A program made the translations under genes and the position numbers. A stretch of DNA of 37,191 bases from an uncultured Bacteroidia bacterium (GTDB lineage Bacteria > Bacteroidota > Bacteroidia > J057 > CALLMJ01), in the NCBI GenBank assembly GCA_938006875.1, contig CALLMJ010000088.1, positions 1-37,191 of the forward strand, read 5' to 3'. Position 1 is the stretch's first letter. Each line of letters begins with the position of its first letter. Below are positions 11,718-20,805 of the stretch, piece by piece. The notes beneath the pieces are model-generated. The model saw nothing but the letters and a program-made list of their open reading frames with translations, made no database searches and was not told where the DNA came from.

Positions 11718-11728
11718 ATAGATGATTA

Positions 11729-11824
11729 GGGTGTGCCCCTTACTACGCTGCGGGTCGGGCTGTTACGTTTACACTGAACTTGCCGAAGTGGGTTTCACTT
11801 TGATTCAGCATTTCGGTGAACTCA
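11729..11824 (+). repeat. Intergenic hairpin repeat, composite (copy B)
   Basis: The gap between the symporter and carB holds a GC-richer block unlike its surroundings. The first part, 11729-11767, reads GGGTGTGCCCCTT then GGGTCGGGCTGTTACG. The second part is an imperfect inverted repeat, TGAACTTGCCGAAGTG (11775-11790) against CATTTCGGTGAACTCA (11809-11824). The first part matches, in opposite orientation, the right end of the repeat at 19563-19690 (GGGCGTGCCCCTT, GGGTCGG), which shows that it belongs to a dispersed family. Short palindromic repeats with these words are common between Bacteroidota genes. It may serve as a transcription stop after the symporter gene. Confidence 0.7.
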
Positions 11825-11949
11825 ATAGATCACAATCCTTTTTCCTTTCAGTCAAGAGGCAGTTCAAAAGCCCCTCTTTTCCCTCACTCATAAATTAACT
11901 ATCCAAACTAATAACAAAAAACCGTTTTTTCAAATTCAATTCTTTTCAT

Positions 11950-19554: not shown

Positions 19555-20805
19555 ATGAAAAAGCGTGAGGAATGCGAAGGGGTAGCACTGCCTAATTCAT
19601 TTTTAAATAAAAATGAATTAGGATTGCCGCAACGAAGTGAAGCCCGAAGCTCTCCGACCCTTTGTTTAACAAAGGGGCACGCCCTCATCATTTTTTTTAT
19701 TTTTTTTCATTTGGTTAATGCTCAAATTGTTATTCATAAGTTTATACCCGGTGATTTCCGATTTAGCAACACTCACCGTGTTGAATTATTAAATATTGGA
19801 AATGAACCCAAAAATATTGGTGATTTTTTGATTGTTACCAGAGATTATTCTGTTAAGTTACCTTCAAAAATTGTGCTTTTTCCTAACCAAAAATATATCA
19901 TTGCTCAAAAAAATAGCGTTCTGAAACCAGATTTAGATTTAACCTCGTGTAAGGATTTTTTGTTCAAACCTTATAAAAAAAATGTAGAAGGTAATTACGT
20001 AGTTTTATTTTCAAATTATTTGCAATTTATTGACGGATTTTATTTTTCTCAATTAAAAGATGTTCCATTTTTACCTGAAAAAAATCGTTTAATTCTTGGT
20101 AATGGAAATATTATTCATTATGAAATTCCAGAAAGTCATTTTCCTAAATGGAAATTTTATCCAATTGGTGAAGACCCTGCGATTGGTTTTGAGCAATATC
20201 TAGGAGAATGGAGGCTTACATCTGTTTATCCTCATAAAAAAATTTATTCCCAAGTTCAATTTAAAAATTTTGGTTATAGATTTTTGAATAATGTCATTAA
20301 TTTTTACTTAGAAACTTCAACGGAAGAGAATTTGTCTCACTTTGAATTGCAAAAACTCAATGGAAATCAATTTTATACTATATACAAATTAGAGCCATGT
20401 AACTCTTATAAAGGTGGAATTTATAAATTTGCTGATGCAGATGTAAAACCTAATCAAACTTTGTATTATAGAATTGCTTCTTATGACCAATTTGGTTTAT
20501 GGTCTTATTCAAAAGTGATTGAAGTAGAAACCCAAGAAAATCAGAAAGATTTTTGGTACGAGATTTTACCCCAAAAGCCTAACCCACAACAAGAAATTAG
20601 TTTACGTTTTTTATCTAGCTTTTCTCAGCCACTCAAAGTCAAATTGTTGAATGAAAAAATGCAAGAATTAAGTATAATTTTTAACAGTTTTATTTATGCA
20701 AATCAACAAAATTTATTGAGAATCAAAAAACTACCTACAGGAAAGTATTGGCTGGTTTTTCAAAATGATTTTCAAAGGAAGTTTTATAGTTTTACAGTAG
20801 ATTGA
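19555..20805 (+). CDS. Secreted protein with T9SS-like tail; N-terminus interrupted by an in-frame repeat
   Basis: The 416-residue reading begins MKK, runs about 40 residues through a dispersed repeat, and then meets a typical signal-peptide core (LIIFFIFFHLVNAQ). Removing the repeat would restore an ordinary signal peptide, MKK plus that core. The body starts with a stretch reminiscent of lamin-tail domains (RVELLNIGNEPKNIGDF). It ends with KPNP, two beta strands and LPTGKYWLVFQ, resembling a T9SS type A sorting tail though less canonical than that of the gene at 1931. It lies 24 bases after the SpoIID-like gene. Whether the protein is still exported is open. Function of the body is unknown. 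Confidence 0.7.
   Translation: MKKREECEGVALPNSFLNKNELGLPQRSEARSSPTLCLTKGHALIIFFIFFHLVNAQIVIHKFIPGDFRFSNTHRVELLNIGNEPKNIGDFLIVTRDYSVKLPSKIVLFPNQKYIIAQKNSVLKPDLDLTSCKDFLFKPYKKNVEGNYVVLFSNYLQFIDGFYFSQLKDVPFLPEKNRLILGNGNIIHYEIPESHFPKWKFYPIGEDPAIGFEQYLGEWRLTSVYPHKKIYSQVQFKNFGYRFLNNVINFYLETSTEENLSHFELQKLNGNQFYTIYKLEPCNSYKGGIYKFADADVKPNQTLYYRIASYDQFGLWSYSKVIEVETQENQKDFWYEILPQKPNPQQEISLRFLSSFSQPLKVKLLNEKMQELSIIFNSFIYANQQNLLRIKKLPTGKYWLVFQNDFQRKFYSFTVD
19563..19690 (+). repeat. Dispersed palindromic repeat inserted in a coding sequence (copy A)
   Basis: The block runs from GCGTGAGGAATGCG to GGGGCACGCCCTCATCA and is richer in G+C than the flanks. It contains a perfect 12-base inverted repeat with a four-base loop (19593-19604 with 19609-19620, built on TAATTCATTTTT). 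A second hairpin is CCCTTTGT/ACAAAGGG at 19658-19665 and 19669-19676. Its right end matches copy B at 11729 in reverse orientation. Its ends hold imperfect inverted words (TGAGG and CCTCA). It encodes no protein of its own. It looks like a small non-autonomous element or palindromic repeat family; limits are approximate. Confidence 0.7.

Follow-up and report, generated by a model that had tools for sequence, protein, structure and literature searches.

How can a dispersed repeat sit in frame inside a signal peptide, and how exceptional is such an insertion in its genome? The question is raised by a gene in the window analysed here, a stretch of 37,191 nucleotides from an uncultured Bacteroidia bacterium (contig CALLMJ010000088.1). 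The gene reads MK[KREECEGVALPNSFLNKNELGLPQRSEARSSPTLCLTKGHAL]IIFFIFFHLVNA^QIVIHK, in which the residues in square brackets are encoded by the repeat and the caret marks the cleavage predicted before Q57, at position 19723. As a preliminary description of the locus had proposed, the repeat lies in frame between the n- and h-regions, and the orthologous site is empty in G001, a draft assembly and the only other genome of the genus that was compared. The G001 orthologue (L044/L174; 76% identity over residues 44-415) lacks the repeat and starts with GTG-AAG-CAA (MKQIVAVIGYIFCFQLAYSQV), followed by ATT GTA. Its N-terminus, M-K-Q-IVAVIGYIFCFQLAYS^QVIISK, runs from MKQ straight into the hydrophobic core, and its signal peptide is short. 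The features of the locus are listed in Table 1.

Table 1. Features of the host gene and of the repeat copies in the window
Feature	Coordinates	Strand	Basis
Host gene, 416 aa, putative exported protein	19555..20805	+	ORF; without Pfam/NCBIfam match; orthologue in G001
Start codon and n-region stub, original (ATGAAAAA, MK+K)	19555..19562	+	Orthologue start GTGAAGCAA = MKQ
Repeat copy, sense orientation, in frame, stop-free, 126 bp = 42 codons	19563..19688	+	Covariance model E 2.8e-20 (G000:C88:19563-19688); alignment; BLAST copies
Perfect 15-bp inverted repeat, 2-nt loop, within the repeat copy	19591..19622	+	Alignment, RNA fold
Second hairpin CCCTTTG...CAAAGGG, within the repeat copy	19658..19676	+	Sequence, fold
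Host gene's own signal-peptide h- and c-region (IIFFIFFHLVNA)	19687..19722	+	Aligns with YIFCFQLAYS^Q of G001
Second family copy in the window, 165 bp, intergenic	11725..11889	-	Best-scoring copy genome-wide (covariance model)

Searches of Pfam and NCBIfam returned no match for the host protein, of which the C-terminal ~80 residues look, by their pattern, like a type IX sorting domain. Its C-terminal part (window 20284-20805) matches several other proteins in both genomes, likewise without a Pfam match. Within the repeat of this gene, a single TTG is the only in-frame start codon.

The genome from which the window comes (G000) is a draft assembly of 2.87 Mb in 185 contigs, 97% complete. BLAST of the 19563-19688 block identified 10 places in it. 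A covariance model built from 14 copies matched 115 sites at E<=0.01, including some low-scoring ones whose left end overlaps the 3' end of a gene, and 94 at E<=1e-6. A matching end noticed earlier at 11729-11767 turned out to be the end of the full intergenic copy in the window, and the carB-like gene downstream of that copy has its own ATG. Copies are about 75-205 bp long, with a length-variable middle between conserved ends (GCGTGAGG...GGGCACGCCCAAAT) and a mean G+C of 45% against 30% in the flanks. The term 'palindromic repeat' used in the preliminary description suits the window copy (RNA fold z = -5.0), in which the 15-bp inverted repeat is longer than its counterpart in the 13 other aligned copies. 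It suits the family less well, with a median z of -0.9 (-0.86) and 19% of the copies below -2.

The ends of the repeat pair over only 5 bp (GCGTG/CACGC, mostly retained). Insertion sites and right flanks are AT-rich, and the junction lists of the G000 copies contain no clear target-site duplication. Many copies have a short, variable, hairpin-like stretch in their left flank (e.g. AAGCAAGGCTTTTGATAA, GCAATTTTATTGCGAGATAT), separated from GCGTGAGG by about 7 nt, so that the true left border of the element may lie beyond that of the covariance model. The Y1_Tnp transposase, the sole transposase family searched, is absent from the 97% complete assembly. Within the order, strong matches are found only in both genomes of the genus, and an exact 26-base pattern of the repeat, searched across GTDB species genomes, matched a single MAG, CALLNY01, to which the contigs of G001 correspond. 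A structured non-coding RNA was rejected based on the weak fold of the family and the lack of Rfam matches, as was carriage by a plasmid or virus, for which a search gave no matches. The repeat is most likely a non-autonomous mobile element, its mobility being read from its dispersion.

Besides the window gene, many others carry the repeat. When the 115 copies were mapped to ORFs, 22 were found in frame inside long ORFs whose start codon precedes the repeat by 2-27 codons; gene models were ORF-based and these cases were selected by an open frame. All 22 lie at the N-terminus, within the first ~27 codons, of exported-looking proteins, and no copy was found elsewhere inside a gene, while a crude baseline gives 25% signal-peptide-like ORFs at the same loci. 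The insertion had been called unusual, which does not hold within this genome. In 19 of the 22 genes a separate h-region directly follows the repeat, with sites of the A^Q type or a lipobox C. The repeat would add 40-65 residues, which mostly bring a net positive charge before the h-region and often end in HPSR or KGHA beside the hydrophobic core. Among the hosts are LptD_2, SBP_bac_5, DUF4249, DUF481, a TonB-dependent receptor, two OmpA proteins, Porin_10, MauG, an M28 peptidase, DUF6702 and DUF5683. At least two reading phases are used, on both strands, and a conserved repeat-encoded peptide was rejected on this basis. The remaining copies are intergenic by ORF scan, and the genes adjoining them have their own start codon.

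The LptD_2 host is the sole LptD_2 match in G000, and lptD, which serves outer-membrane biogenesis, is normally essential in Gram-negative bacteria. This gene (L072:1457-3124, G000:C117) has an apparent GTG start 14 codons before the repeat and directly follows a lepA-like gene. An LptD_2 search of the G001 draft gave no matches.

One concatenated search recovered G001 orthologues for 20 of the 22 hosts, with 56-82% identity over the compared region. Eighteen of these 20 lack the repeat and two carry it. Either the window gene gained its copy or G001 lost one; as 18 of the 20 orthologous sites are empty, gain is favoured. Residues in front of the repeat match the start of the orthologue in several genes (MKWN, MIIGLI, KFN). 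At C25:40050, MKWNK[60 aa]AFFLLFFSLSLNAQNYRIEEK corresponds to the repeat-free MKWNNHIFLLLSLFFFHLNAQNYRIEEK of G001, and the MIIGLI... start of C30 is common to both species. The genes with a repeat in both species are C113 and C93:1491, with copy lengths of 129/141 and 192/132 bp, respectively; the differences of 12 and 60 bp are multiples of three. Each pair may go back to one insertion in a common ancestor or to separate insertions in the two species.

C113 (DUF5683) and C24 (DUF6702) lack a hydrophobic stretch after the repeat. Here the repeat itself, in an antisense frame, encodes an h-region and cleavage site, SLFAAAILFLSVKGSA^TP and SLIASAILFLSVKGSA^KP respectively, and the G001 orthologue of C113 has a repeat-encoded FACAAAILFASLKGSA^SP. 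These two G000 genes contain no in-frame start codon within or past the repeat, so that any protein they make must be translated from the ATG in front of it. A LysM gene (C1:12283) may be a third, weaker case. Judged from these sequences, we infer that the repeat has become the signal peptide in two to three genes.

The reading frame of the coding copies was compared with that of the others. Among 87 copies of at least 100 bp outside signal peptides, any one frame is open in 19% of the copies if antisense and in 6% if sense. The frame used is open in all 22 coding copies, with a chance near 3e-18 if the frame were irrelevant, a value that is partly circular as an open frame was required. This circularity is mitigated by a scan of the sequence on either side of every copy, which needs no open frame: it found no frame-broken repeat upstream of a signal peptide without a start, decayed genes being invisible to it. 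Coding copies are antisense to sense in a ratio of 19:3, against 30:42 for those intergenic copies that lie no more than 300 nt in front of a gene (Fisher 2e-4). From the frame openness, an antisense share of 77% is expected, which the observed bias fits (p 0.45). An open-frame filter explains the orientation bias, and a functional preference is unnecessary.

Taken together, the reading that we prefer, with a probability of about 0.7, is that of a mobile repeat that is lost from the mature part of coding sequences, is tolerated where its translation product is later cut away, and has sometimes been exapted. A non-autonomous repeat would have come to occupy about 115 sites in this Bacteroidia lineage and would persist between genes, while insertions into mature coding sequence would be purged by selection. 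In-frame insertions between n- and h-region would survive because the added residues lengthen the cytoplasmic n-region. Translated from the upstream start as part of this n-region, the repeat would be lost when signal peptidase cuts off the signal peptide, leaving export working and the mature protein unchanged. In some genes the repeat itself would have been recruited as signal peptide. The broader claim, that signal peptides act genome-wide as both safe harbour and recruiting ground, is held with somewhat less confidence and appears rather probable. It would comprise a repeat that is kept in coding DNA only where it is cleaved off, rides in lptD and became the signal peptide in two or more genes, including one that is common to both species.

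Other explanations can be given for the same pattern. The repeats might be 5'-UTR insertions, with the real start inside or just after the repeat, the upstream MKK-like stretch being chance or a relic and the frame being open owing to the scarcity of antisense stops in the G+C-richer repeat. Most coding copies do contain an in-frame GTG or TTG and some an ATG; an ATG follows the repeat by 5-12 codons in C86 and C109:9212 and lies in its last codons in C56, and in 72 gene-side contexts a repeat is found at most 300 nt upstream of a gene having its own ATG. This explanation is nevertheless unlikely, given that C24 and C113 offer no such start and the window gene one TTG only, that the residues before the repeat match the true start of the orthologue (MKWN, MIIGLI, KFN), and that about two thirds of the cases should be out of frame by chance. 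Another possibility might be that the insertions have been selected repeatedly, with a long positive n-region tuning targeting as in autotransporters. The mostly positive charge before the h-region, the two carriers common to both species and the repeat-encoded h-regions of C113 and C24 are consistent with this. The absence of a common peptide, the two or more reading phases on both strands, the 18 orthologues that do without the repeat and the 93 other copies outside signal peptides make such a general adaptive role improbable.

A preference of the element for junctions of A-runs and T-runs, which the starts of signal peptides resemble, would make selection unnecessary. The AT-rich insertion sites and right flanks (flank G+C 30%) are in line with it, and such a preference may contribute beside selection. 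As the sole cause we regard it as about as improbable as the adaptive role, because it leaves unexplained both that 22 of 22 copies are in frame and open and that the antisense bias occurs only in coding copies. As to the fate of the host genes, the preliminary description had left three outcomes: inactivated export, tolerance, or a new N-terminus. Most copies agree with tolerance; for C24, and for C113 in both species, a new N-terminus is the fitting outcome. Inactivation in decaying genes would agree with the species-specific insertion in the window gene, and 42 extra residues could make a signal peptide less effective. It is very unlikely in general, because the sole detected LptD_2 gene carries an insertion and the frame is kept throughout, every ORF still being open; moreover, the hosts are 56-82% identical to their orthologues. 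Selection on cleaved leaders remains the preferred reading. The grounds named beforehand as speaking against an insertion are not what was found: other copies are many, and the orthologue without the repeat has the short N-terminus.

Repeats that enter reading frames have been described before. According to a review (PMC2229807), the Rickettsia palindromic elements (RPEs; Ogata et al. 2000) are found in frame in 19 reading frames as well as between genes; their hosts include gmk, whose product is active despite the insert. The present repeat resembles them in being short (RPEs are about 100-150 bp), in occurring both between genes and in frame in conserved genes, and in being tolerated (PMC2229807). 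However, RPEs lie within genes such as gmk, whereas the genic copies in G000 are all in signal peptides and mostly not strongly palindromic; the two are likened by description only. The RU-2/YPAL sequence fused to YPO1552 in enterobacteria (Delihas 2007, PMC2759123) is a precedent with few, single predicted cases, compared to 22 genes in one genome here, mostly with empty orthologous sites. In type V autotransporters, the ESPR gives signal peptides of more than 50 residues, in which the N-domain is long and has a positive charge (PMC2805444). Long, positive n-regions in exported proteins are common to both systems, but the ESPR hosts belong to type V secretion, while here a dispersed repeat is read in differing phases in unrelated hosts (LptD, SBP_bac_5, DUF481, Porin_10, OmpA). 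REP/RAYT systems (PMC3733652) likewise have short, high-copy repeats with hairpins. REPs measure 20-40 bp, compared to 75-205 bp here, and Y1_Tnp is absent from G000, and identity with REP/RAYT was rejected on these grounds. Compared with MITEs, the repeat shows 5-bp terminal pairing and no clear target-site duplication, with a transposase search that covered Y1_Tnp only.

A literature search, with most subscription papers outside its reach, returned no description of a repeat restricted to signal peptides, and this confinement appears unreported. Most of what is known about selfish DNA inserted in frame into bacterial genes comes from Rickettsia, where it is the mature protein that has to accommodate the insert. 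Here a filter becomes visible: each of the 22 copies that are in frame within genes falls in a segment that the protein is expected to lose. This suggests that disposable leaders offer selfish DNA a safe place to land. These genes provide a natural experiment on the amount of added sequence that a bacterial signal peptide can accommodate, and would illustrate a route from mobile DNA to a functional export signal. In such genomes, the N-termini given by gene callers and by signal-peptide prediction may be wrong.

Two further observations concern G001. Five of its repeat-free orthologues (L181, L183, L185, L190 and L193) have unusually long n-regions of about 20-50 residues (e.g. MKIIQSFKNILTWLVSLNVWTWRFSNFFAYCQGQFRILSLRHPMMLRFL...). 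These may be decayed insertions, or the genus may be tolerant of long n-regions. A search for decayed repeats in them returned only marginal matches, and decay is not favoured as their source. In L170 (G001:C105:3278-3400), a repeat lies just upstream of a papain-like protease gene. Where the left end of this repeat meets the flanking sequence an ATG arises (AAAAT|GCG), from which the frame is open into the signal peptide, and a second ATG follows.
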